Origin: Anaerolineales bacterium
GTDB taxonomy: Bacteria; Chloroflexota; Anaerolineae; Anaerolineales; UBA11858
Assembly (NCBI GenBank): GCA_016783125.1
Contig: JADHXE010000007.1
Location: 1-37,191 of the forward strand
Reading direction: 5' to 3'
Length of the DNA: 37,191 nt
The translations under genes and the position numbers were made by a program. Positions 6,574-37,191 of this stretch are shown here, in pieces (the stretch's first letter is position 1; every line of letters starts with the position of its first letter). Under the pieces are notes generated by a model. It ran no database searches and was not told the DNA's origin. It was given only the letters and a program-made list of their open reading frames with translations.

Positions 6574-7419
6574 ATGACTAAAAAAACACTTATCCCTCAA
6601 ACCCCCACTGCGTCCCCATGCGAAACTTGCCCGGTTCACAACGCGGCGAACTTGCTCAAGTTGGGTGTGGATATGGAAGATTGGGATTTCGCGGTGGCCC
6701 TGGCGGGTAACCCCAACACAGGGAAAAGTACGGTTTTCAATGCCCTGACCGGCTTGCGCCAACACACTGGCAACTGGCCCGGAAAAACCGTCACGCGTGC
6801 CGAAGGCGGTTTCGAGTACGCCGGCAACCGATACAAAATGGTAGACCTGCCTGGTACGTATTCGTTGTTAGCCACCAGCCTGGATGAGGAAGTGGCCCGA
6901 GATTTCATCCTGTTCGGTCAGCCAGATGTTTCGGTCGTGGTGGTAGATGCAACGCGTCTAGAACGTAATCTAAACCTGGCTTTGCAGGTCATGGAAATCA
7001 CCCATCGCGTGGTGATCTGCCTGAACTTGATCGATGAAGCTGAACGGCACGGCTTCCAGGTTGATGACCGCCGTCTGGCGCGTGATTTGGGTGTGCCGGT
7101 TGTGCCCACTGTCGCCCGCCATGGCCAGGGCATGGATATGCTCTTGCAGGCCATTCACGAGGTTGCTACGGGCGAAACAGTTGCTAAGCCCTATCGTGTG
7201 CGTTATGAGTCTCCAGCACTCAAGCACGCCGTTTCCCAGTTGGTTGAGCAAATTGAGGTGGCCTTACCCGATCTGCCGAATCCCCGCTGGGTGGCTTTGC
7301 GTTTATTGGATGGCGATGAACGTATCGCCGAAGCCTTTCGTAAGGGCGAGTTAGGTGACCTGACTTATGGCAGCCTGGAACAAAGAGCTGCCCAACTGCA
7401 AGTTGTTGGTAATCAGTAG
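6574..7419 (+). CDS. feoB: FeoB N-terminal GTPase domain, separate gene
   Basis: This 281-residue soluble protein is the GTP-binding half of the ferrous iron transporter FeoB. G1 is GNPNTGKST (about 45-53), the G2 region is HTGNWPGKTV, G3 is DLPGTYSL (about 91-98), and G4 is NLID, where NxxD is expected. A Cys pair CETCPVH precedes the G domain at about 14-20. A short helical GDI-like region ends the protein. Normal FeoB is about 700-770 residues and continues into the membrane domain; here a stop codon ends the chain and the membrane part is the next gene. The two halves presumably assemble at the membrane. No clear ribosome binding site precedes the ATG at 6574. Confidence 0.88.
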   Translation: MTKKTLIPQTPTASPCETCPVHNAANLLKLGVDMEDWDFAVALAGNPNTGKSTVFNALTGLRQHTGNWPGKTVTRAEGGFEYAGNRYKMVDLPGTYSLLATSLDEEVARDFILFGQPDVSVVVVDATRLERNLNLALQVMEITHRVVICLNLIDEAERHGFQVDDRRLARDLGVPVVPTVARHGQGMDMLLQAIHEVATGETVAKPYRVRYESPALKHAVSQLVEQIEVALPDLPNPRWVALRLLDGDERIAEAFRKGELGDLTYGSLEQRAAQLQVVGNQ

Positions 7420-7420
7420 T

Positions 7421-7538
7421 TTGGTAAATTGGAAACCAGTGAATTGGTTTTGGTAAATTGGGAAATGGCAACTTTGGCTAAAATCCAAGCGCCAATTACC
7501 TAACCAATTTACCAATCGCCAATTACTAATCACCAAAC
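7421..7538. repeat. Inverted repeat of ttggtaaattgg words between the two FeoB halves
   Basis: TTGGTAAATTGG occurs at 7421-7432 and nearly again at 7450-7461. Its complement CCAATTTACCAA is at 7504-7515, with further GCCAATTAC words at 7491 and 7518. The repeat starts directly after the stop codon of the G-domain gene and ends just before the ribosome binding site of the membrane-domain gene. Confidence 0.75.
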
Positions 7539-7550
7539 AATGGAGATTTT

Positions 7551-8990
7551 ATGAGTACGCAACAAACAATAACATCTGAGGAAATCCTCAGCACTGCATA
7601 CGCCTTGCGCTGGGAAGTCAGCAGTGATTTTCACGAACAGGTGATGGAATCGATCTACACCGACGCGGCGCGCATTGCTGACCGCGCCATCACCCATCCT
7701 GAAGAAAAGCCTCGCTTTGATTTGGATCGCGCCATTGATCGCCTGGTCACCAGTCGCACATGGGGATTCCCCTTGATGCTGCTGCTGTTGACTCTCGTTT
7801 TCTGGTTGACCATCGCCGGGGCTAATGTCCCTTCGGCTATGTTAGCTACGCTGTTTATCGATACCATCCACCCGGCCTTGATGGGCTTTGCTGCTACTAT
7901 CGGGATGCCCTGGTGGCTGAGTGGTTTTCTATTCGATGGCATGTATCTGGCGACAGCCTGGGTGGTCAGCGTGATGCTGCCGCCGATGGCGATCTTCTTC
8001 CCGTTGTTCACGCTGTTGGAAGATTTTGGCTATCTCCCACGCGTGGCCTTCAACCTGGATAATATGTTCAGAAAAGTCGGCGCCCATGGCAAGCAGGCTC
8101 TCAGCATGTCGATGGGATTTGGCTGCAACGCTGCTGGCGTGGTGGCCGCGCGGGTGATCGACAGCCCGCGCGAGCGTTTGATTGCCATCATCACCAATAA
8201 CTTCGCCCTGTGTAATGGACGCTGGCCCACTCAAATCCTGATCGCATCGCTGTTTATTGGCGGTTTGGTCTCATCTCAGTTAGCAGGATTGATATCTGCT
8301 TTGGCTGTGGTGGGGATTGCAGTATTAGGCATTTTTCTGAGCTTTGCGGTTTCCTGGGGACTCTCTCGCACCGTTTTGCGTGGTGAGGTGTCTACTTTTA
8401 GCCTGGAACTACCCCCCTACAGGCCTCCCCGCATCTGGCAGACGATCTACACGTCGATGATCGACCGCACTTTGATCGTACTCTGGCGGGCGATAATCTT
8501 CGCCATGCCCGCCGGCGCGGTGATCTGGTTATCAGCCAATGTCAATATTGCTGGCGTGAGCATCGCCGAATACCTGATAAACTTCCTCAATCCCTTTGGT
8601 ATTTTCCTGGGTTTGAATGGTGTGATTTTGGTGGCGTATATCGTCGCTATCCCCGCCAATGAGATTGTCATCCCTACCATCCTGATGCTGACAGTATTGG
8701 TCACCAACGCAACCGATGTTGGCGGCGGAGCAGGTGTGATGTTCGAGCTGGATTCCAATGCTGAAATGATGACTCTCTTCCAGGCTGGCGGCTGGACATT
8801 ATTGACCGCCGTCAACCTGATGTTGTTCAGCCTGCTCCATAACCCCTGCAGCACCACGATTTACACCATCTACAAAGAGACGGGCAGCGCTAAATGGACT
8901 ACGATTGCCTCTCTATTGCCAGTAGCGATGGGCTTTGCAATCACCTTCCTGGTAGCTCAGGTCTGGAGACTTGTAGTAGGAATTTTGTGA
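7551..8990 (+). CDS. feoB: FeoB C-terminal membrane permease domain, separate gene
   Basis: This 479-residue polytopic membrane protein is the permease half of FeoB and carries Fe(II) across the cytoplasmic membrane. The first 75 residues are a soluble linker helix region; hydrophobic helices begin at [15 protein letters not shown]. The first Gate motif is [22 protein letters not shown] (about 188-209, Cys at about 191), and the second Gate region includes [34 protein letters not shown] also matches the FeoB C-terminal region. The start ATG 7551 has a TGGAG ribosome binding site at good spacing, so this is a genuine separate cistron rather than a frameshift remnant. It needs the upstream G-domain protein for nucleotide-linked function. 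Confidence 0.92.
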
Positions 8991-19555: not shown

Positions 19556-19891
19556 GTTATCGCTAATTCCATAGGATCATTTTTTTCACCACAAAGACGC
19601 AAAGGCACGAAGACTCATCAAGAGAAAATCTTTGGCAAGAAATGAAAACATCCTATTTTCATCAATAGAAGTTTGAACACTTACACCGTGTAGTGATTCA
19701 TAAGGAATCCAGGAACGTAGGTATGCAGGAGAAATAATTCCTGGATTCCTGGGTTCCTTATAAAAATCAGTTGTTCAACCTTCTATTGACCAGTACAGAA
19801 ATGAAAATATTCACTTATTCCTGAGTAGTTTCAAGTGAAGAAAGAAAAGTCAACTACGCACTCTTGAAACTTGCGCCAAGAAATAAATAAC
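19556..19891. other. 336-base gap with nested inverted repeats
   Basis: No gene is seen. ACCACAAAGACGCAAAGGCACGAAG (19590-19614) is a half-copy of the cacaaag/cttcgtg family. A larger nested repeat sits at 19662-19789. Further inverted words, GAGTAGTTTCAAG and CTTGAAAC, flank the last 70 bases before the next gene. Confidence 0.7.
19662..19789. repeat. Nested inverted repeat (tcaatagaagtttgaac / ataaggaatccaggaa)
   Basis: The outer arms TCAATAGAAGTTTGAACAC (19662-19680) and TTGTTCAACCTTCTATTGA (19771-19789) pair at 17 of 19 positions. Inside, ATAAGGAATCCAGGAA (19700-19715) pairs with TTCCTGGATTCCTGGGTTCCTTAT (19738-19761) when an 8-base repeat unit is looped out. No coding potential. Confidence 0.8.
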
Positions 19892-22800
19892 ATGTCACTC
19901 CTTATTCAAACACCCTGCTTCAGCGAGCAAGAAGCGCGCCGCCTTATTCAGGAATTCTACGGTATCACGGGGGGGATGGCGCCACTGCCCAGTTATAGCG
20001 ATCAGAATTTCTTGCTCCACGCTGACACCGGAGAACGTTATGTCCTCAAGATCTCCAACGCCGGTGAAGAAAAAGCCTCGCTAGATGCTCAAAATCAGGC
20101 CTTGGCGCATCTCGCCGAACATGGCTTTTCGTGCCCACAGGTTGTACGCACACTATTGGGGGATTCGATCACCAGTGTTCAATCACCAACAGGAGAAACT
20201 CATTTTGTGCGCCTGGTTTCCTATCTACCAGGCACTCCTTACGGAAAAATCCGGCGTCAGACTACCAATTTTTACGAAAACCTGGGGGAATATCTTGGAC
20301 GGCTGGACCGCGCCTTTGCCAGCTTCGATCATCCGGCAACCCGGCGCGATTTTCAATGGGATCTGGCCAACGCCCTGGGTGTGGTGAAAGAGTATGGATC
20401 ATTTATCACAGATACTAAACTCCGTCAGTTGATCGATCAGTTCGCGCTCGATTTCGAGAATAATGTACTTCCCCTGCTGCCCAAATTACGCAGAGGTGTG
20501 ATTCACAACGACGCCAATGAGTACAACGTTATTGTCGGCGGCGGCGATGATCTCTACACGCGAAACCAGCAAGTTGTCGGCATCATCGACTTTGGCGATA
20601 TGGTGTACAGCTTCACTGTCGCCGACTTAGCCATCGCCATCGCCTACGCGGTGCTCGACAAGCCCGACCCGCTGGCGACAGCAGCGCTGGTGGTACAGAG
20701 CTACCACATCGAGAATCCGCTCACGGAGCAGGAGATCAGCGCCATCTTTGGGCTGGCTTGCATGAGGCTTTGTATCAGCGCCTGCATCACCGCTCAGCAA
20801 GCCAGCCAGCGCCCAGACGACGAATACCTGACCATCAGCCAGGGACCAATCCACAACACGCTGCCAAAACTGGCTAAAATCCACCCCCGTTTCGCCGAAG
20901 CCACCTTCCGCCAGGCCTGCGGGTTGACTCCGCTGCCTCGAACCGAGACAGTCATCCAATGGCTGAAAACCGATGCTCAAGTTGCGCCAATCTTAGATGT
21001 AGATTTAACTACTGCGCCGCTCGTCGTTTTCGACCTGGGTATCAGCAGCCCGCTCTTGGGGGCAGATCAAACCTCAATGACAGAATCCACCCTGACCCCC
21101 CGTCTGTTCAGCCAGATGGAAGCCGCGCGAGTCCTGGTCGGCATCGGGCAATATGACGAAGCCCGGCTGCTGTACACCACACCAGCCTTTGCCACCGGCG
21201 ACAGGCTGACTGACGAACACCGTACCATCCATCTCGGCATAGATCTCTTTGCAGCACCCGCCACTCCGGTTTACGCCCCGCTGGATGGCCAGGTGTACGC
21301 CTTCCAGGACAACCAGGCCCCCCACCCTCCGGGTTACGGCCCGGTGATCATCCTGGAGCACCACACCGACGACGGCACCGGCACGCCGTTTTACACGCTG
21401 TACGGCCATCTCAACGAGGCATCCCCTAAAGGGCTGAAGAACGGCCAGAAGATCACTGCCGGGGATAAGCTAGGGGAGATCGGCACCGCGGAGGTCAACG
21501 GCGGCTGGACACCGCACCTGCACTTCCAGATCATCATAGATTTACTCGATCTTGATTGCGATTTCCCCGGCGTTTGTCAGGCCAGCCAACGGGAGATTTG
21601 GAAAGCCTTTTCGCCTGACCCCAACCTGATCCTGCGCATCCCCGAGAAACAATTTCCTAAACCCCAGCCCAGCAAAGTCGAAACTTTAGCAGCGCGGCAA
21701 AAACTGATCGGCAGAAGCCTGAGCATCGGCTACAACGAACCGCTCAAGATCATGCGGGGCTGGAAGCAATATCTTTTCGATGAGACCGGCAGGCGCTACG
21801 TCGATGCCTACAACAATGTACCCCACGTAGGGCACTGCCACCCGCGCGTCGTAGCAGCCGGGCGAGAGCAGATGAGGGTGCTCAACACCAACACCCGCTA
21901 CCTGCATGATTACCTCAATCAATACGCCCAAAAGATCATCGCCACGCTGCCAGAGCCGTTGAGCGTTTGTTTCTTCGTCAACTCCGGCAGCGAGGCCAAC
22001 GAGCTGGCCTTGCGCCTGTCCCGCGCTTATACCAGACAAAAGGATATGCTTGTCTTAGAAAGCTCCTATCACGGCCATACCACCTCGCTGATCGACATCA
22101 GCCCCTATAAACACGACGGGCCAGGAGGCTCTGGCGCGCCGCCTTGGGTGCACACCATCCCCATCCCCGATACGTATCGCGGCCCTTACAAAGCCGACGA
22201 TCCCCAGGCAGGACACAAATACGCTCAGCACGCCAAGGAGGCCATCGAGCAAATGCAGAAAGAAGGCCGCGGCCCCGCAGGCTTTATCGCCGAAATCTGC
22301 CCCAGCGTAGCCGGCCAAATCTTCCTGCCCGAAGGTTATCTAAGCCAAGTGTATGAACACGTGCGCGCCGCAGGGGGGCTGTGTATCGCTGACGATGTGC
22401 AAACCGGCTATGGCCGCACCGGTACGAATTTCTACGCCTTCGAGGACCACGGCGTTGTTCCCGATATCGTCGTGCTGGGCAAACCCATTGGCAACGGTCA
22501 TCCCATCGGCGTGGTGATCACCCGCCCGGAGATCGCCGCGGCTTTCGATAACGGCATGGAGTTCTTCTGCACTTTTGGCGGCAACACGGTCTCGTGCGCG
22601 ATTGGTATGGCGGTGTTGGATGTCGTTCTGGAGAAAGGATTACAGGATCATGCTCTGCAAGTGGGGAATTACTTGCTCGAGGGATTACGCATCTTTGAAG
22701 ACTCCTACCCCCTTGTGGGAGACGTACGAGGGTCTGGGTTGTTCCTGGGCGTGGAGTTGGTACAACACCCAGAGAGCCTAGAACCAGCCGCCGCAGAAGC

Positions 22801-22966
22801 CACGTTTATCGCCAATCGCATGCGCGAGTTGGGGGTGCTGCTGGGCATCGACGGCCCCTATCACAACGTGATCAAGATCCGCCCACCGATGCCTTTTTCG
22901 ATAGCAGATGCTGACTTGTTATTAGGGGCTATGGGGCAAATCCTATGGGAAGATTTTGGGAAATAG
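19892..22966 (+). CDS. Three-domain fusion: APH-type kinase, M23 peptidase, class III aminotransferase/phospholyase
   Basis: This 1024-residue protein joins three modules. Residues about 15-330 are an aminoglycoside phosphotransferase-like kinase with [13 protein letters not shown] (about 203-215) and IIDFGDM (about 231). About 425-560 is an M23 LytM-like domain with all metal-ligand motifs (IHLGID, LYGHL, HLHF). About 600-1024 is a class III PLP enzyme with [36 protein letters not shown] and [10 protein letters not shown] (PLP Lys about 864). The GKPIGNGHP form resembles AGXT2L-type ammonio-phospholyases. Kinase plus phospholyase suggests phosphorylation of an amino alcohol such as hydroxylysine or ethanolamine, then elimination of phosphate and ammonia. 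No signal peptide is seen, so the M23 domain would be cytoplasmic, which is odd. ATG 19892 is chosen over TTG 19871. Confidence 0.85.
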
Positions 22967-23064: not shown

Positions 23065-24513
23065 TTATTTCATCCGCCCCTCAGCTTTTTCAATCACCGC
23101 ATCCAATGTTTTTACAACCCCCTCATCTAGCGGCGCGGGCCGGTATGTCTCGAAGATATCGCGCACTTTGGCATTGACCCGGTCTCCCATCGTCAGCGAG
23201 CCAGCCAACTCCCAGCTTTCACGCGAAGAGCGGTCGAACAACTTGGGCACCCAGTTGCGGCGGAAATGCTTGAAGGTATGCTCTTCTCCAACGAAGTGAC
23301 CACCAGGGCCGACCTGGTCGATCACATCCAGGGCGATGGTTTCCTCGTTAATCTCGATGCCGCCCATAAAGCGTTTGACCAAACCAGCGACCTCGTCCAT
23401 CGCCGCGATCTGTTCGTAGGATGCCGTGATACCCCCTTCGAGGTAACCCACATCATGGATCAAGTTACCGCCGCCCAGGGCTGTGATCATCATCCAGACG
23501 GCCCCCTCGGCGGCGGCCTGCTGGTCGAATACTTTGGCATCGCTGCAACCTGAGAAAGCAAAGATGGGGATTTCGTAGAAATGACACATCTCAGCGAAGG
23601 CAGTATTCCCCAACATTACCTCCGGCGCGGCGTAGGAAATTAATCCTTGCCCCATATCCATAAACAGGATGCCGCCCGCCCCGATCATCGGCGCGCCCTC
23701 GCGGACTAACTGAGTGATCAGCAAGCCGCTGAGCTGCTCGGCGTTGGCCTGCACCAGCGCTCCGGCAACCGTCACTGGCGCAGTGGCCCCGACCATCATC
23801 CCTGGGGTATAGACCACCGGCAATCCCTTATCAGCCAGGAAGAGCAATTTTTCGCAGCTCTCCTCAGCATGAGTCAATGGGGAGATCGGTTCGCTGTACA
23901 GGGCGCAGAAAGGATTGCGCTGCAAAGCCTCAGCACCCCCGGCGACGGCTTCAGCCATCTCGATGATCGCTTCCAGATTGCGGCGGCTCCAGGCTGTATA
24001 AATAATTGGCTTGGTTGTATTCGAGACCATCTCCCGGAAATGATACAGATCAGAGAGATTCTCAGTCACATCCGAGGCGATACCCATACACATCAGAAAG
24101 TCGATATGCTCAAGGGCATCCACCAGTTTGGCTACGTTGGCAACATCCGCCAGAACGGCCTCACGGCGCTCGCCGGTATAGGCATCCAGCACGAAGGGGG
24201 TATCCGAGCCGGTGCCGTAGTAACCCTTGCGGCCTTCCAATTCCATGGCGGGGTTGCCGTCGCGGTCGCACAACACCACCCGCGTCGGAGCGCTGCGGAT
24301 GGCCCATTCAATCAAATGCGAGGGAATGCGTACCCTCTCACCATCCAGCCAGCAGCCGGCTTTCTTCAATAACTCGCGCACCTCCGGGACCAAAACATTC
24401 ACCCCCGTTCGGCGGAGCAACTCTAAGGTCGCGCCGTGAATCTCCTGCTTCTGGTCATCGCTAAGCAGCTTAATGCCTGGTGAAACTTGAGCTACGAAAT
24501 CGCCGTTGATCAT
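23065..24513 (-). CDS. MttB-family corrinoid methyltransferase, non-pyrrolysine type
   Basis: This 482-residue protein belongs to the trimethylamine methyltransferase (MttB) superfamily, TIM-barrel enzymes that move a methyl group from a quaternary or tertiary amine to a corrinoid protein. Family segments include GTGSDTPFVLDAYTGERREA, ILFMDMGQGLISYAAPE, FAFSGCSDAKVFDQQAAAEG and DQVGPGGHFVGEEHTFKHFR. The frame has no internal TAG at the pyrrolysine site, so it is of the MtgB-like type. MtgB uses glycine betaine; other relatives use proline betaine, carnitine or butyrobetaine. No corrinoid protein or MtgA-like partner gene is in the window. The start is supported by AAGGAG upstream of ATG (24513). 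A TATAAT box lies about 75 bases upstream. Confidence 0.88.
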   Translation of the reverse strand: MINGDFVAQVSPGIKLLSDDQKQEIHGATLELLRRTGVNVLVPEVRELLKKAGCWLDGERVRIPSHLIEWAIRSAPTRVVLCDRDGNPAMELEGRKGYYGTGSDTPFVLDAYTGERREAVLADVANVAKLVDALEHIDFLMCMGIASDVTENLSDLYHFREMVSNTTKPIIYTAWSRRNLEAIIEMAEAVAGGAEALQRNPFCALYSEPISPLTHAEESCEKLLFLADKGLPVVYTPGMMVGATAPVTVAGALVQANAEQLSGLLITQLVREGAPMIGAGGILFMDMGQGLISYAAPEVMLGNTAFAEMCHFYEIPIFAFSGCSDAKVFDQQAAAEGAVWMMITALGGGNLIHDVGYLEGGITASYEQIAAMDEVAGLVKRFMGGIEINEETIALDVIDQVGPGGHFVGEEHTFKHFRRNWVPKLFDRSSRESWELAGSLTMGDRVNAKVRDIFETYRPAPLDEGVVKTLDAVIEKAEGRMK

Positions 24514-29929: not shown

Positions 29930-31204
29930 TTATCCATCCATAGCATCAACCAGGCAGCACTTATGGGTGATGTGGTATTCGAACTCTTCCCGGAAGCGCT
30001 GGATGGCTGAACGCGGCGGGTTGACCAGCATCGCACCCATGGGACAAAAGGTCTGCCCATCAATGCCCTGGACCAGTTCCAGGATCAGGTCGATATCTCC
30101 AGTTTTGCCCTTGCCATGTTCCATGCGGTCCAGGATTTCGAAGATGCGCTGCGAGCCGATCCGGCAGGGGGTACAACGCCCGCAGGATTCGTGGGCAAAA
30201 AATTTACTCAAGCGGCGGGCTGCCTCCACCATGCAGGTGGACTCATCCATGACGATGATGGCCCCGGTGCCCAACTCGCTTCCCACCTGCTTGAGTGTCT
30301 CGAAGGCCATGGGGACATCGATCTGGTCGGCGGTCAACATAGGAGTGGATGTCCCACCTGGTATAATGGCTTTTAGTTTTTGACCGCCGCGTATTCCACC
30401 GGCATGTTCGTAGATGATCTCTCTCAGGGGGATGCCCAATGGGAGCTCGTAGTTGCCAGGGTGCTTCACATGCCCGCTAACAGAAAAAATCTTCGGCCCT
30501 TTACTCTCCTCGGTGCCGATCCCTGCGAACCACGCTGATCCCCGCTCGATGATGTTCGGGATGCAGGTCAGGGTCTCGATATTGTGTACCAGCGTCGGCA
30601 GGCCAAACAGGCCAGTCTGTGCCGGATACGGAGGCTTGAGGCGCGGGTTGCCGCGCTTGCCTTCCAATGATTCGAGCATGGCCGTTTCCTCGCCGCAGAT
30701 ATAAGCTCCCGCACCGCGGTGGACAGACATATCCAGGTTCAGGCCGGATCCCAGGATGTTCTCGCCCAAGTAACCATGCTCGTAAGCATCGGCAATAGCC
30801 TTGATCCAGCGCTTGACTCCCAAGAAGAACTCTCCGCGAATATAAACGTAAGCCCGGCTGGCTCCCACAGCGTAGGCTGCAATGATTACTCCTTCGATGA
30901 CCTGATGCGGGTCGCTCTCGACGATCTCGCGGTCTTTGAAAGTGCCCGGCTCACCCTCGTCCGTGTTGACAGCCACGATTTTTTGAACATCTGCATCCCG
31001 GGGCATGAACCCCCACTTGACCCCCGCGGGGAAGCCCGCCCCGCCGCGCCCGCGCAACCCAGAGCGTTTGACCATTTCGATGATCTCTTCGGGTGCCAGC
31101 GTTAAAGCTTTGCGCGCTGCCTGGTATCCGCCGTGGGCCAAATAGACACTGATCTTTTCAGAATCGGGCCGGTGAATATTGCGAGTTAAGACTGGTTCGA
31201 ACAT
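29930..31204 (-). CDS. NuoF-like NADH-binding flavoprotein, Complex I type
   Basis: This 424-residue subunit carries FMN and a [4Fe-4S] cluster and should oxidise or reduce NAD(H) for the formate dehydrogenase complex. Motifs are RGRGGAGFPAGVKWGF (about 52-67), NTDEGEPGTFKDRE, GAGAYICGEETAMLESLEGKRG, an SLBB-like segment, and the cluster motif ESCGRCTPCRIG with a later Cys near FCPMGAM. It lacks both the N-terminal thioredoxin-like and the C-terminal ferredoxin domains of the other NuoF in this cluster. The start lies 4 bases after the NuoE stop, with AGGAG inside the NuoE 3' end, so the pair is translationally coupled. Confidence 0.92.
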   Translation of the reverse strand: MFEPVLTRNIHRPDSEKISVYLAHGGYQAARKALTLAPEEIIEMVKRSGLRGRGGAGFPAGVKWGFMPRDADVQKIVAVNTDEGEPGTFKDREIVESDPHQVIEGVIIAAYAVGASRAYVYIRGEFFLGVKRWIKAIADAYEHGYLGENILGSGLNLDMSVHRGAGAYICGEETAMLESLEGKRGNPRLKPPYPAQTGLFGLPTLVHNIETLTCIPNIIERGSAWFAGIGTEESKGPKIFSVSGHVKHPGNYELPLGIPLREIIYEHAGGIRGGQKLKAIIPGGTSTPMLTADQIDVPMAFETLKQVGSELGTGAIIVMDESTCMVEAARRLSKFFAHESCGRCTPCRIGSQRIFEILDRMEHGKGKTGDIDLILELVQGIDGQTFCPMGAMLVNPPRSAIQRFREEFEYHITHKCCLVDAMDG

Positions 31205-31208
31205 GGCG

Positions 31209-31673
31209 CTACTCCTGCCTCAATTGCTCAATCAATTCATCGATGTTTTCCGGCGTCATGTTTTCGCAAAGCTCGTCGTTGACGCGCAAGGCGGGAGCCG
31301 TACCGCAGGCAGCCAAGCATTGCACGATTTCGAGGGTAAATTTGCCATCGGGGGTGGTTTCACCCGGCTTGATGTTAAGACGTTTGGCAACATGATCGAT
31401 GATTGGTTCAGCACCCCCCACTAGATAACAAGAAAGCCCTTCACAGACCTGGATACGGTATTTCCCCAGCGGCTCTAGCTTGAACATGGTGTAGAAGCTG
31501 GCCGTCGATTTTACTTGCCCAGGAGTTAGTCCTAACCTGTCGGCCACGCGCTGGATCGCATCAGGGCCTAACCAGCCATACTGCTCCTGGGCAATGTACA
31601 GGGCAGCCAGCAGACGGGAGCGTCTCCGGGGATTGACAACTGCAGGGGGGTATTCTTTATTTTCGAGGATCAA
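31209..31673 (-). CDS. NuoE-like [2Fe-2S] subunit, second copy
   Basis: This 154-residue thioredoxin-fold protein carries one [2Fe-2S] cluster with Cys motifs VCEGLSCYLVG and QCLAACG. It pairs with the NuoF encoded immediately after it. The start is probably TTG 31673: GGAGG ends about 6 bases upstream and the residues from there align with the usual NuoE N-terminus. The 100-base gap from the formate dehydrogenase gene contains an inverted repeat (31700-31775). Confidence 0.9.
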   Translation of the reverse strand: MILENKEYPPAVVNPRRRSRLLAALYIAQEQYGWLGPDAIQRVADRLGLTPGQVKSTASFYTMFKLEPLGKYRIQVCEGLSCYLVGGAEPIIDHVAKRLNIKPGETTPDGKFTLEIVQCLAACGTAPALRVNDELCENMTPENIDELIEQLRQE

Positions 31674-31699: not shown

Positions 31700-31775
31700 C
31701 AATCGATTCGTATTTCGTGTTGTGTATTTCGTAAACCTGTACGCAATACGAAATACGAAACACGGGATACGATTT
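31700..31775. repeat. Inverted repeat of cgtatttcg words after the formate dehydrogenase gene
   Basis: AATCGATTCGTATTTCGTG (from 31701) pairs imperfectly with CACGGGATACGATTT (to about 31775). It forms a hairpin directly between the formate dehydrogenase stop codon and the NuoE gene. It may act as a processing or partial termination signal in the operon. Confidence 0.7.
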
Positions 31776-34617
31776 AATTTGCTACTTCAACTTTAACCGC
31801 GCACACTTTGTATTCCGGGATTTTAGCAATAGGGTCTAATGCTGCGATGGTTAATTCGTTGGCAGAGGCCTCCGGAAAATGGAAGTTGGCATATACCATA
31901 CCAGGGGGTACCCGGTCAGTGATCAGGGCCTTGGCCTCGATGCTGCCGCGCCGGGATGAGACACGTACACGTTTGTTGCCGTTTAATCCCAGCTTGGCGG
32001 CATCGTCCTCATTAACTTCGATCAGCGCCTGTGGGTAAATTTCTAGCAGGCCCTTCGAGCGACGGGTCATTTGCCCGCCGTGCCAATGGAACAGTACTCG
32101 CCCGGTGCTGAGGATTATGGGATATTCGTCATCGGGCAGCTCGGCGGGCGGGACGTGCTCAATGGGGTGGAATTTACCCAGGCCGCGGGCGAATTGGCCC
32201 ACGTGCAAAATCGGCGTGCCGGGATGATTCTTATCTTTGACCGGCCACTGGAGGGTCTCGCCGTTCTCCATCCGTTCGTAGCGAACTCCAGCATAGCTGG
32301 GTGTGAGGGCCGCGATCTCAGCCATGATCTGGGCGGTGTTCTCGTATTCCCAGCCGCTGTAGGGAGCGGCTGGATCGATTTTACGAGAGTCGTCCGAGGT
32401 CTGAAGCACGCGTTTTGCCAGTTCAGCGGTAATCCACCAGTCTGGTTTGGCTTCGCCGGGCGATTCGATGGCTTTGCGCCCCATCTGGATGCGGCGCTCG
32501 GTGTTGGTGAAGGTGCCGTCTTTTTCGGCGAAACTGGCACCGGGCAGCAATACATCGGCATAGGGTGCGGTTTCGGATGGGAATATCTCCTGGAGCAGGA
32601 TAAAATCGCAAGACTCCAAACAGTGGCGAATGTGATTGGTATCCGGGTCGCTCATGATGGGATCTTCACCCAGGATGTAGAGCGCTTTGACCTTGCCTTC
32701 ACCGGCGGCAGGGATCATTTCGGTGATGCCTAATCCGACGGCGGACGAAAGACCGCCGACCGCCGTCTGTGATCCGCCGTCGGCGGTCGACAGGCCCCAG
32801 GCCTGTGCGAATTTCTCGCGCACTTCCGCACTGGTAACAGACTGATATCCGGGGTAGACGTTCGGCAGGCCGCCCAAATCGCAAGCGCCCTGAACGTTGT
32901 TCTGGCCGCGCAGGGGGTTGGTGCCGCCGCCGGGAACGCCCATATTGCCCAGCAGCATTTGCAGGTTGGCCAAGCTCATCACGTTATGCGTTCCGGTGGT
33001 GTGCTGGGTGATCCCCATCGCCCACAACACAGCAGTTGGTTTATTCTCGGCTAACAGTTCGGCGGCTTGCTGCAATTGCTCAACCGGAACCCCGGTGATC
33101 TCGGCGACCCGATCCGGGGTATATTCTTCCACCGCGGATTTGAAATCGTCGAAGCCCTCAGTGCGGGCAGCGATAAACTCTCCATCTTCCCAGCCGTTGG
33201 CCAGAATGATATTCATCAAGCCGTTCACCAGGGCGATATCAGTGCCGGGTTCATGTCGCAAGTGGATGGTAGCGAAATCGGTCAGGTCAATGCGGCGCGG
33301 GTCTGCCACGATCAGCACGGCCTCGCGCTGGCGTACCGCCTGCCGGATGCGCATCCCTATGATGGGGTGCTGCTCGGTGGTGTTAGAACCGATCACGAAG
33401 AAGGCTTTCGCATGCTCCGCAATATCATCAATCGAGTTAGTCATTGCGCCCGAACCAAAGGAAGTGGCCAGACCGGCCACGGTGCTGCTGTGTCAAAGAC
33501 GGGCACAGTGGTCTATGCTGTTCGTCCCGATCACCTGCCGGGTGAACTTGTTCATCAGGTAGTTTTCTTCGTTGGTGCATTTTGCCGAGGTCAGCACGCC
33601 GACGCTCCGAGGGTCGGATTCATCGCGGTGCTGGCGGAACTTTTGGGCGGTGATGTCGAGGGCGGTATCCCAATCGGTTTCGACCCACTCCCAGGGATCA
33701 CCGGCCACCTCTGGATGACGATCTGCGGGGCCCGGTTTGGGTTGGCTGCCCTCTAAAAGGTAGCGTCTCACTTGGGGTTGGGTCAACCGATCCGGATGAT
33801 GGACAAAATCCCAGCCAAAACGGCCTTTGACGCAGGTCCAGCCATGGTTGGAAGGTCCCTCCCAGGCTGAATCCACCTTGATGATCTCGTTATCCTTAAC
33901 TTCCAGAATGATCTGGCAACCAACTCCGCAATAAGGGCAGGTGGTCTGGATGCGCTCGACCTCCCAGGGGCGTCCTTTGCCGAGGGACATTTTCGGCCAC
34001 AAGGCCCCCGTGGGACAGACCGCCACGCAGGAGCCGCAAAACTCGCAGGGGCTGTCAGCCATGTGGCTGTCGGCGCCAAAGCCGATATAGGCACCGAAGC
34101 CGCGGTAGAACACGCTGATGGCCTCCACGCCGTTGATTTCGCGGCAGGCGCGCACACAGAGGCGGCACAAGATACATTTGTTGCGGTCGACCTGGATGAA
34201 GGGGTTAGGATCATTGATCGAGTAGTGATGTTTGGTGCCCTCGAAGCGGTCGCCTTCGACGCTGTATTCGTAAGCCAAATCTTGCAGCAGGCAATCGCCG
34301 GTGGCCTCGCAGGTCATGCAATCCAGGGGGTGGTCGGAGATGAGCAGTTCCAGGTTGAACTTACGGGAGGCTCTCACCCGCTCGGTATTGGTATGTATCA
34401 CTAATCCATCGGTGGCCGGGAAAGTGCAGGCTGGCTGCAGGGTACCCTGCTTTTCGATTTCCACCAAACAGATGCGGCAAGCACCCTCGGGGGGCAATGC
34501 CGGGTGGTCGCACAGCACCGGAATGTAGATACCGGCTTCACGGGCTACTTGCAGGACAGTCTGTCCGGTCTCACCCTGGATTTTCTTTCCGTCAACACTA
34601 ATGTTTACAGTTGCCAT
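31774..34617 (-). CDS. fdhA: Selenocysteine-containing NAD-linked formate dehydrogenase, catalytic subunit
   Basis: I read this as one 947-residue selenoprotein. The N-terminal part has a [2Fe-2S] set (Cys 36, 47, 50, 64), a His/Cys cluster (His 96, Cys 100, 103, 109) and two ferredoxin [4Fe-4S] sets (Cys 148-158 and 191-201). The molybdopterin part starts with a [4Fe-4S] motif (Cys 227, 230, 234, 262). After IDHCARL, the in-frame TGA at 33493-33495 falls at residue 375, followed by HSSTVAGLATSFGSGAMTN. Formate dehydrogenase H has Sec in the same context (CARV-U-HGPSVAGL). A hairpin with a GGTCT loop follows. The enzyme would bind a Mo- or W-bis-MGD cofactor and oxidise formate or reduce CO2, passing electrons to the NuoEF subunits. 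AAAGGAGT precedes ATG 34617. An in-frame palindrome at 32735-32788 adds about 15 residues. Confidence 0.92.
32735..32788. repeat. Palindromic element inside the formate dehydrogenase coding region
   Basis: CCGACGGCGGA (32735-32745) is the exact complement of 32773-32783, and GACCGCCGA (32751-32759) of 32780-32788. On the minus strand it encodes STADGGSQTAVGGLSSAVG between AWGL and LGITEMI, where related enzymes usually have a short loop. Its word order gacgg-ggac-gaccg matches the intergenic palindrome at 6495-6553. Confidence 0.8.
33464..33495 (-). promoter_or_regulatory. UGA selenocysteine codon with bacterial SECIS hairpin
   Basis: On the minus strand the TGA is at 33495-33493. Eighteen bases intervene before the GGTCT loop, and the stem GTGGCC/GGCCAC (33480-33475 and 33469-33464) is perfect over 6 bp. 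E. coli fdhF has the same spacing from TGA to its GGTCT loop and a similar apical stem. This is the expected SelB-binding structure. Confidence 0.9.
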
Positions 34618-34635: not shown

Positions 34636-36549
34636 CTACGCTGTTTCCAACGGGACAATCTCATGTTTGCGCTTGATCAGGATCGCGCCGAGTTTGCAGA
34701 CCTGGTAGCAGGCTCCGCATTGGATGCACATGGACTGATCGATGACGTGGGGCTGTTTTTTCTCGCCGGTGATGGCGTCTGATGTGCAGGCTTTGACGCA
34801 CAGGCCGCAGCCGGGGCAAAGCTCGGCTTCGATCTCGTAAGTGAACATGCCCGCGCAAACACCCGCCGAACAGAAATTCTCTTTGATATGGGCTTCGTAC
34901 TCCTCGCGGAAGAAACGCAGGGAGGCTATCACCGGGCCGGGGGTGAGCTGACCGAGCGCACAGAGTGAGCCTTCGCTCATATATTCGGAGATGTATTCGA
35001 TCTCGTCCAGGTCTTCCAGCGTCCCCTCGCCGTTGGTGATGCGGGTCAGCACTTCCAATAGCCTTTGTCCGCCGATCCGGCAAGGGACGCATTTCCCGCA
35101 GGATTCTGCCGAGGCGAAGGTCAGGAAGTAACGGGCAAATTCGACCATGCAGGTATCCTGATCAACGACGATCATTCCGCCGGACCCCATGGTTGCTCCC
35201 GCTTCCGTGAGGGAATCGAAATCAACAGGGGTATCCAATGCATCGACAGGCAGGCACCCACCCAGGGGGCCACCAGTCTGCACCGCTTTGAATTGTTTTT
35301 TCTTGGGGATGCCGCCACCCACATCGTAAATGATCTCGCGCAGGGTAATACCCATCGGTACTTCGATCAAACCGGTGTTTTCGATGTTACCGGTTAAGGC
35401 GAATACCGCCGTCCCGGTAGAGCGGGGCGTACCAATACTGCTGAACCAGTCTGCACCCTTGAGCATGATCTGGGGTGTGATGGCATAGGATTTAACGTTG
35501 TTGACATTGGATGGTTTTCCCCACAGCCCTGAAACCGCCGGGTAGGGCGGGCGCGGGCGCGGCTCGCCGCGCTTGCCCTCGATGGAGGCAATCAAAGCGG
35601 TCTCTTCGCCGCAAACGAAAGCCCCTGCACCTTCTTTGACCTTCAATTCGAAGGAAAAATCCGAACCCAGGATATTCTCACCAAGCAGGCCGTATTCGTG
35701 GGCCTGGGCGATGGCTTTCTTCAGGCGTTCGATTGCCAGGGGGTATTCGGCCCGGCAATAGATGTAACCTTCCGGCGCGCCGATGGCGTATGCGGCGATA
35801 GCCATCCCCTCGATGACAGCATGGGGATCGCCTTCTAAAATGGAGCGGTCCATAAAGGCTCCGGGATCGCCCTCATCGGCATTACAGATGACGTATTTAG
35901 GGTAACCGCGTGCCCTCATGCAAAATTCCCACTTGACGCCGGTCAGGAACCCGGCCCCGCCGCGCCCGCGCAGCCCGGAGTCTTTCATCTCGTCGATAAC
36001 ATCCTCGTTATCCATTTCGTTGACGATTTTTGCCAGGGCGCGGTAGCCATCCACAGCGATATATTCGTCGATGCTTTCCGGGTCGATCATGCCGCAGTTG
36101 CGCAAAGCAATACGCACTTGTTTGCGGTAGAAAGGGTGTTCATCGTAGGTGGTCAGGCCATCTTCGGCGGAACCCGTTCCATTGGTCAATTGGGCAAAAG
36201 CCCATTTTTTGATAATCTGCTCTTTGACCAGATGCTCGTCAATGATGCACGGCACCATTTTGGGGGTGACTTTGGCATAAGTCACGCGCGGCTTGCCGGG
36301 AAGTTGAATATCCACCAATGGCTCATTGGCACAGGTTCCAATGCAGCCCACACTCACGATCTCGGTATCCAGGTTGCGGGCCGCTAATTCGGTACGCACG
36401 GCTTCGGCAACATCCGATGCTCCGGCGGCGATGCCGCAGGTTCCCATACCAATAAAGATCGTTGCACCAGAGATTGTCTTTTCTTTTAATTTCGCTTTTG
36501 CTGAGGTGCGTAGGTGGGCCAGGTCTTCTCTGTTCTTCAACACGGGCAT
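34636..36549 (-). CDS. HydB/HylB-type NuoF flavoprotein with terminal Fe-S domains
   Basis: This 637-residue subunit has three parts. Residues 1-120 are a thioredoxin-like ferredoxin domain (MGTCGIAAGA at about 35-44 and CIGTCANEPL at about 69-78); only three of the usual four Cys ligands are obvious. About 150-560 is the NuoF core (RGRGGAGFLTGVKWEFC, CNADEGDPGAFMDRS, GAGAFVCGEETALIASIEG, ESCGKCVPCRIGG) for FMN, NAD(P)H and a [4Fe-4S] cluster. About 575-637 holds two ferredoxin-type [4Fe-4S] motifs (CPGCGLCVKAC and CIQCGACYQVC). This architecture is typical of bifurcating [FeFe]-hydrogenase HydB and formate dehydrogenase HylB. AAGGAG precedes ATG 36549, 16 bases after the NuoE stop. Confidence 0.93.
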   Translation of the reverse strand: MPVLKNREDLAHLRTSAKAKLKEKTISGATIFIGMGTCGIAAGASDVAEAVRTELAARNLDTEIVSVGCIGTCANEPLVDIQLPGKPRVTYAKVTPKMVPCIIDEHLVKEQIIKKWAFAQLTNGTGSAEDGLTTYDEHPFYRKQVRIALRNCGMIDPESIDEYIAVDGYRALAKIVNEMDNEDVIDEMKDSGLRGRGGAGFLTGVKWEFCMRARGYPKYVICNADEGDPGAFMDRSILEGDPHAVIEGMAIAAYAIGAPEGYIYCRAEYPLAIERLKKAIAQAHEYGLLGENILGSDFSFELKVKEGAGAFVCGEETALIASIEGKRGEPRPRPPYPAVSGLWGKPSNVNNVKSYAITPQIMLKGADWFSSIGTPRSTGTAVFALTGNIENTGLIEVPMGITLREIIYDVGGGIPKKKQFKAVQTGGPLGGCLPVDALDTPVDFDSLTEAGATMGSGGMIVVDQDTCMVEFARYFLTFASAESCGKCVPCRIGGQRLLEVLTRITNGEGTLEDLDEIEYISEYMSEGSLCALGQLTPGPVIASLRFFREEYEAHIKENFCSAGVCAGMFTYEIEAELCPGCGLCVKACTSDAITGEKKQPHVIDQSMCIQCGACYQVCKLGAILIKRKHEIVPLETA

Positions 36550-36565: not shown

Positions 36566-37033
36566 CTACTCAAGTTCGTGCAGATACTCAACCAGGGTAT
36601 CCGTATCGGTCTGGCCGTAGACCTGATCGTCGACCACCGCAATGGGGGCCAATCCGCATGATCCTAGACAATAAACAATTTCTAATGTGTACTTATAATC
36701 TGGGTCACTGCCTCCGGGTTTTATGCCAAAAGCATCTCCGACACCATCGACGATTTTTGGCGCGCCGCGCACATGGCAGGCCGTTCCGTCGCAGATACGC
36801 ACAATGTGGCGGCCGCGGCGCTCCAAATTGAATTGGGCATAAAAGGTAACAACCCCATATAACTGACTCAGAGGAATCCGGGTCTTCTTGGAAATAGCCG
36901 TCACGACTTCCTTAGGGAGATAGCCGTAAGCATCCTGGGCGCGCTGTAAAATGGGGATGACAGCCCCCTTTTGAGTTTTGAATTCATCAAGGATTGGGTC
37001 GAGTAGTGCCAGATCTATGGGTGCATCGCTCAT
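36566..37033 (-). CDS. NuoE/HydC-like [2Fe-2S] subunit, first copy
   Basis: This 155-residue thioredoxin-fold protein carries a [2Fe-2S] cluster with CDGTACHVRG and YCLGSCG motifs. A helical N-terminal region (ILQRAQDAYGYLP) is typical of NuoE. It is the first gene of the formate dehydrogenase cluster and is followed by the HydB-type NuoF. The start is ATG 37033 with AAGGAG 7 bases upstream; a TTG six codons earlier overlaps that ribosome binding site. A consensus promoter lies 30-58 bases upstream. Confidence 0.93.
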   Translation of the reverse strand: MSDAPIDLALLDPILDEFKTQKGAVIPILQRAQDAYGYLPKEVVTAISKKTRIPLSQLYGVVTFYAQFNLERRGRHIVRICDGTACHVRGAPKIVDGVGDAFGIKPGGSDPDYKYTLEIVYCLGSCGLAPIAVVDDQVYGQTDTDTLVEYLHELE

Positions 37034-37062
37034 AAATTGCTCCTTTGTCAAACATAACGAAA

Positions 37063-37143: not shown

Positions 37144-37191
37144 TATGACTTACGTACTGGCGATGGAAAAAGTCCGAAAATAAGGGGTGTG
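37144..37191. repeat. 48-bp repeat, right copy, inverted relative to the left window end
   Basis: This is the reverse-complement partner of 13-60, with three transitions as differences. It reaches the very last base of the window, so its full length cannot be seen. It lies upstream of the formate dehydrogenase promoter. Confidence 0.8.

Follow-up and report, generated by a model that had tools for sequence, protein, structure and literature searches.

A UGA-interrupted fdhA gene in an Anaerolineales genome that probably encodes a selenocysteine-containing, NAD-linked formate dehydrogenase

Results

A formate dehydrogenase gene with one in-frame TGA

The window, by which we mean the whole 37,191-nucleotide stretch of DNA analysed, is contig C16 of a 4.33-Mb assembly of 318 contigs that is 88.37% complete. 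Its minus strand carries a formate dehydrogenase gene, fdhA, with NuoE- and NuoF-like genes on either side (Table 1). The table-11 ORF list divides fdhA into two pieces (33493-34617 and 31774-33480), and the initial annotation, which took these to be one gene that a standard reading would split, was right on both counts. When TGA is read as U, a single frame of 947 residues is obtained, with U at residue 375 in the context DHCARL-U-HSSTVAGL. This TGA, confirmed as the reverse complement of 33493-33495, is the sole one ahead of the end of the frame, and no further stop occurs in the 947 codons. The positions first given for the gene, the TGA, and the hairpin were all correct.

Table 1. Features of the fdhA locus, with positions in the window
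Feature	Position	Strand	Basis
fdhA, predicted Sec-containing formate dehydrogenase alpha subunit with NuoG-like N-terminal FeS domain	31774..34617	-	One frame with TGA = U; TIGR01591; Pfam
In-frame TGA (predicted Sec), codon 375	33493..33495	-	Aligned site TGA in 90/124 distinct proteins, Cys codon in 34/124
Predicted SECIS hairpin, 6-bp stem, GGTCT loop	33464..33480	-	Sequence GTGGCC-GGTCT-GGCCAC; comparative support
NuoF-like diaphorase subunit with C-terminal ferredoxin domain, upstream of fdhA	34636..36549	-	nuoF_fam 487.9 bits, below cut-off 558.65; Complex1_51K, NADH_4Fe-4S, Fer4
NuoE-like thioredoxin-fold [2Fe-2S] subunit, upstream	36566..37051	-	2Fe-2S_thioredx 154.6 bits; NCBIfam matches all below cut-offs
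Second NuoE-like subunit, downstream of fdhA	31209..31673	-	nuoE_fam 163 bits, cut-off 142.4
Second NuoF-like subunit, downstream of fdhA	29930..31204	-	nuoF_fam 599.7 bits, cut-off 558.65

The read-through protein matches TIGR01591 (formate dehydrogenase alpha) over residues 225-943 with 795.9 bits against a cut-off of 666.25, and Fer2_4, NADH-G_4Fe-4S_3, Molybdop_Fe4S4, Molybdopterin, and Molydop_binding all exceed their Pfam cut-offs; it therefore joins an above-cut-off family match to the Mo-cofactor and 4Fe-4S domains of a formate dehydrogenase alpha subunit. Over the first 210 to 280 residues there are also matches to NuoG- and HoxU-type models, with scores below their cut-offs. Alignment with Escherichia coli FdhF, which had been suggested as a check, shows 38% identity over residues 220-944 and places the TGA at the FdhF Sec site, in agreement with the earlier claim that it occupies the Sec position of the family.

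The NuoG-like N terminus of FdhA and the NuoE/NuoF-like partner genes together make up the gene content of an NAD-linked formate dehydrogenase. Among the 80 named relatives, a NuoF-like gene lies upstream on the same strand in 53 of the 68 whose upstream flank spans 2 kb or more. NuoE2 and NuoF2 come immediately after FdhA in 8 of the 80, for which flanks reach at most 3.5 kb and are often shorter. In the window, this second NuoE-NuoF pair (29930-31673) comes directly after fdhA without a NuoG of its own, and beyond it are a response regulator and then a histidine kinase. A 33-nt inverted repeat (31701-31779; 79% complementary, 13 nt between arms) spans the interval from fdhA to the second nuoE and reaches the final codons of fdhA; searching the window with a 26-base segment of the repeat, allowing up to 3 mismatches, gave no other copy.

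Three further observations concern the rest of the window. FeoB is spread over two ORFs in different frames, with 6574-7419 matching model positions 1-178 and 7551-8990 matching positions 226-594, so that 6574-8990 represents either split genes or a frameshift. A 1031-residue ORF at 19871-22966 combines phosphotransferase (APH), peptidase M23, and class III aminotransferase domains. An MttB-family (trimethylamine methyltransferase) protein at 23065-24513 is open under table 11 for its 482 residues.

The hairpin in this gene and in its relatives

All 6 of the stem pairs downstream of the TGA are Watson-Crick, and the GGTCT loop starts 21 nt past the T of the TGA, a spacing identical to that in fdhF as read from NC_000913.3 (E. 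coli K-12); the perfect 6-bp stem and the fdhF spacing had both been described correctly. Taken alone, this hairpin is only modestly unlikely by chance: with the peptide VAGLAT fixed and the gene's own codon usage, the loop and six pairs arise with P = 0.030. The window has 2 sites that combine a TGA with a GGTCT hairpin behind it (stem of 4 bp or more, loop 14-29 nt further on); the one in fdhA is flanked by 380 and 572 open codons, the other by 14 and 17. Single-sequence folding proved uninformative as a test for a SECIS, as the native 48 nt do not outperform shuffled sequences (z 0.67; 145/200 shuffles fold equally well or better). An Rfam scan at gathering thresholds gave no match within the window; its two matches, to tRNA-Sec and, marginally, to glmS, both lie in locus L001.

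For comparison we used the best matches to this protein, namely the best 80 of at least 593, plus loci for 30. The Sec site was covered in 138 of 139 loci (L193 being the exception), and collapsing duplicates gave 125 distinct proteins, including the window's own. One of these (L184; 27% identity, TAT, and an off-target alignment at the site) was removed before expected counts and the tree were computed, leaving 124 rows. The Sec-site codon is TGA in 90 and TGC/TGT in 34; a separate count of 80 TGA and 30 Cys among 110 includes duplicates and the window itself. Because the relatives were picked as best matches, 90/124 is not an unbiased Sec frequency.

The GGTCT loop is present in all 90 distinct TGA proteins, the window's included, and all six pairs form in 89. 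Synonymous codon choice, with this gene's codon usage applied to every row, predicts 2.71 full elements (loop and six pairs) where 89 of 90 are observed; for the Cys proteins the corresponding figures are 0.5 expected and 1 of 34 observed. Thus, unlike the evidence from the single gene, the comparative evidence places the hairpin far beyond chance. GGTCT by itself is kept in 7 of the 34 Cys rows. Pair 17:29 joins two third codon positions. In TGA rows it is GC in 51, CG in 24, AT in 13, and TA in 2, so that it is complementary in 90/90 despite having changed 14 or more times across the tree, whereas it is paired in 16 of the 34 Cys rows. In the alignment these are compensatory substitutions, mostly at synonymous positions, that go together with a UGA, and the hairpin as a whole is under selection tied to UGA. 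Conservation and covariation across the 90 TGA proteins thus bear out the proposal of an internal SECIS, and two marks of a bacterial selenoprotein gene are found: an in-frame UGA where relatives have Sec or Cys, and directly downstream a hairpin under selection.

Two alternatives would dispense with a functional Sec codon. The first is that the TGA is a nonsense mutation in a pseudogene or truncated gene and that the hairpin is coincidental. The split in the table-11 ORF list and the P value of 0.030 for the hairpin alone are what such a mutation would give, but it would hardly be shared at the same site by 90 distinct proteins with a conserved and covarying hairpin, nor would it leave the remainder of 947 codons free of stops; we consider it extremely improbable. 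The second, that TGC or TGT has been misread as TGA, draws on the 318 contigs of the source assembly and on the Cys forms among the relatives. It too has almost no likelihood, because the nearest orthologues (L165 and L171, 84% identical), which come from independent assemblies, also have TGA, and the hairpin here is of the TGA type, not the Cys type.

Sec decoding machinery in the genome

The initial annotation expected selA, selB, selC, and selD elsewhere in the genome. Three of the four are in the assembly: a tRNA-Sec (73.1 bits, anticodon tca, with ARAGORN in agreement), SelA (536 bits), and SelB (330.7 bits), both proteins above cut-off. The genome that carries the UGA therefore also carries tRNA-Sec, SelA, and SelB. 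Genome-wide reassignment of UGA, for example to Trp or Cys, would explain an in-frame UGA where relatives have Cys with no need for SECIS-dependent decoding. However, of the 25 ORFs in the window that were taken as genes, 8 end in TGA, which makes the readthrough local, and neither the Sec machinery nor a hairpin selected only together with UGA would be expected under reassignment, which we accordingly regard as having a negligible chance of being correct.

The fourth gene, selD, was not found in the 88.37%-complete assembly, either with the family model or with a same-genus SelD query. The only match, a protein on contig C119, was rejected as a candidate; HypE and ThiL models outscore SelD on it, and all are below their cut-offs. 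Across the family, SelD scores above cut-off in 14 of 21 genomes, and our genome is among the 7 of 21 without a match. One explanation is that the lineage has lost selD, so that the Sec codon would be decoded poorly or through an unknown selenium donor route. The seven genomes without a match speak for such a loss, but the other six are 80-88% complete, SelD is present in 7/7 family genomes with completeness of 90% or more and contamination of no more than 5%, and this gene still has an intact hairpin; we therefore judge loss to be very unlikely. Because all seven of the most complete and cleanest family genomes have SelD, its absence here is probably a gap in the assembly. All 14 family SelD matches over cut-off (L194-L207) hold one in-frame TGA each, which suggests that SelD is itself probably a selenoprotein in this family.

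We also considered whether the contig had been misbinned. A point in this direction is that the nearest full-length FdhA orthologue (85% identical) belongs to another genus, g188, while in the six other genomes of its own genus the top FdhA match is 50-57% identical. Nevertheless, the tetranucleotide profile of the window is closest to that of its own genome (correlation 0.953 for 12 loci on its other contigs, 0.944 for loci from the same genus, and 0.865 for those from g188), which makes misbinning less likely.

Distribution of Sec and Cys forms

On a FastTree phylogeny of the 124 rows, at least 14 changes between Sec and Cys are needed, and starred branches force 13 of these; changes were counted without inferring direction. 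None of 500 shuffles of the Sec/Cys states required as few (mean 30 changes). As judged from this tree, the states are clustered, yet far from the result of one single switch. A Cys form (L027) and a Sec form (L033) occur in the same genus. Our own genome has, besides the Sec form, a shorter Cys FdhA paralog (C263:13407-15554; L162, L186) that is 49% identical over 740 aligned positions. Another FdhA paralog, from a further genome of our genus (G312:C124:39165-41288; L185), has three TGA and one TAG within the match and is perhaps a decayed or frameshifted copy.

Among 298 genomes of the class, SelA is above cut-off in 246, in a search whose filters also lose weak matches, and SelD in 250. A tRNA-Sec match above cut-off is found in 239/298, a number that may include false positives: the tRNA-Sec model exceeds its cut-off in five controls (E. 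coli, Caulobacter vibrioides, Thermus composti, Thermotoga maritima, and Methanocaldococcus jannaschii), whereas the SelA search gives a match in E. coli alone (1e-40).

Discussion

Taken together, these data lead us to conclude, with a probability of roughly 0.95, that 31774-34617 encodes a Sec-containing, NAD-linked formate dehydrogenase alpha subunit whose UGA is decoded as Sec through a GGUCU hairpin. By analogy with known systems, SelB carrying Sec-tRNA(Sec) would bind the GGUCU hairpin just 3' of the UGA, and during translation Sec would be inserted at codon 375 in place of release. The selenol of Sec would then be a ligand of the active-site Mo or W. Electrons would pass through the NuoG-like FeS domain and on to the subunits of NuoE/NuoF type that the adjoining genes encode, with formate as the presumed substrate and NAD as the presumed acceptor.

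A plain table-11 reading splits this gene; here it is corrected and tied to the Sec machinery of the same assembly. The genome had been thought to be probably from Chloroflexota, a placement that the analysis supports. The reason initially given for interest in the locus, that Ser in the Dehalococcoides relatives would make a Sec form informative, does not hold up. The Dehalococcoides Ser protein is described as an FdnI-like subunit and belongs to a different type of formate dehydrogenase (PMC5736913), and Sec forms are already published: Sec formate dehydrogenases are annotated in three Anaerolineales single-cell genomes (PMC4959059), the account of An-B22 places Sec in its NAD-linked formate dehydrogenase (PMC5736913), and for Dehalogenimonas the text reports a Sec formate dehydrogenase and a Sec SelD with putative SECIS elements (PMC4918011). 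In a paper on Lost City Chloroflexi, by contrast, the single mention of selenocysteine is about Sulfurovum (PMC7117926). A Sec formate dehydrogenase is thus usual for this bacterial group, and the present case is real, correctly read, and ordinary.

What may be of wider use is the distribution of the two states. Frequent Sec, many Sec/Cys switches, and the coexistence of Sec and Cys FdhA in one genome provide a usable data set for Sec/Cys evolution. A 2006 bacterial survey tabulates seven Sec-to-Cys and no Cys-to-Sec events for FdhA (PMC1794560). A bolder and, in our estimate, unlikely account is that, among the at least 13-14 Sec/Cys switches of Anaerolineae FdhA, one of them within a genus, at least one was a Cys-to-Sec regain. 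If this were true, the clade would lend itself naturally to tests of the drivers of Sec loss and gain. The Cys forms that retain the GGTCT loop could be intermediates.

Several known systems resemble the one proposed here to different degrees. E. coli FdhF also has a UGA-coded Sec at the aligned site and a GGTCT loop at the same distance, but its SECIS stem differs in sequence from the stem here and it lacks the NuoG-like N-terminal domain, its residue 1 aligning at residue 220. Closer in architecture are the solved NAD-linked FdhA chains 7vw6, 7e5z, and 6tg9, which have a NuoG-like N terminus, match residues 2-944 or 2-947 with 706-738 bits, and, as here, belong to a type with NuoE and NuoF partners encoded alongside; the structure listing, an annotation only, assigns them no Sec. 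The proposed electron-bifurcating HylCBA-FdhA is described as having NuoE-/NuoF-like partners and Sec in FdhA, as in our system (PMC5736913). There, however, HylA is a separate FeS subunit, whereas in our system FdhA itself carries the FeS-rich part as a fusion, and no separate HylA beside FdhA was found within the window (ending at 37191), where the neighbours are NuoE-/NuoF-like only. By their published descriptions, Dehalogenimonas (PMC4918011) and the Anaerolineales single cells An-B16, An-B22, and An-K11 (PMC4959059), all of other species, combine a Sec formate dehydrogenase with Sec machinery, as the genome studied here probably does.
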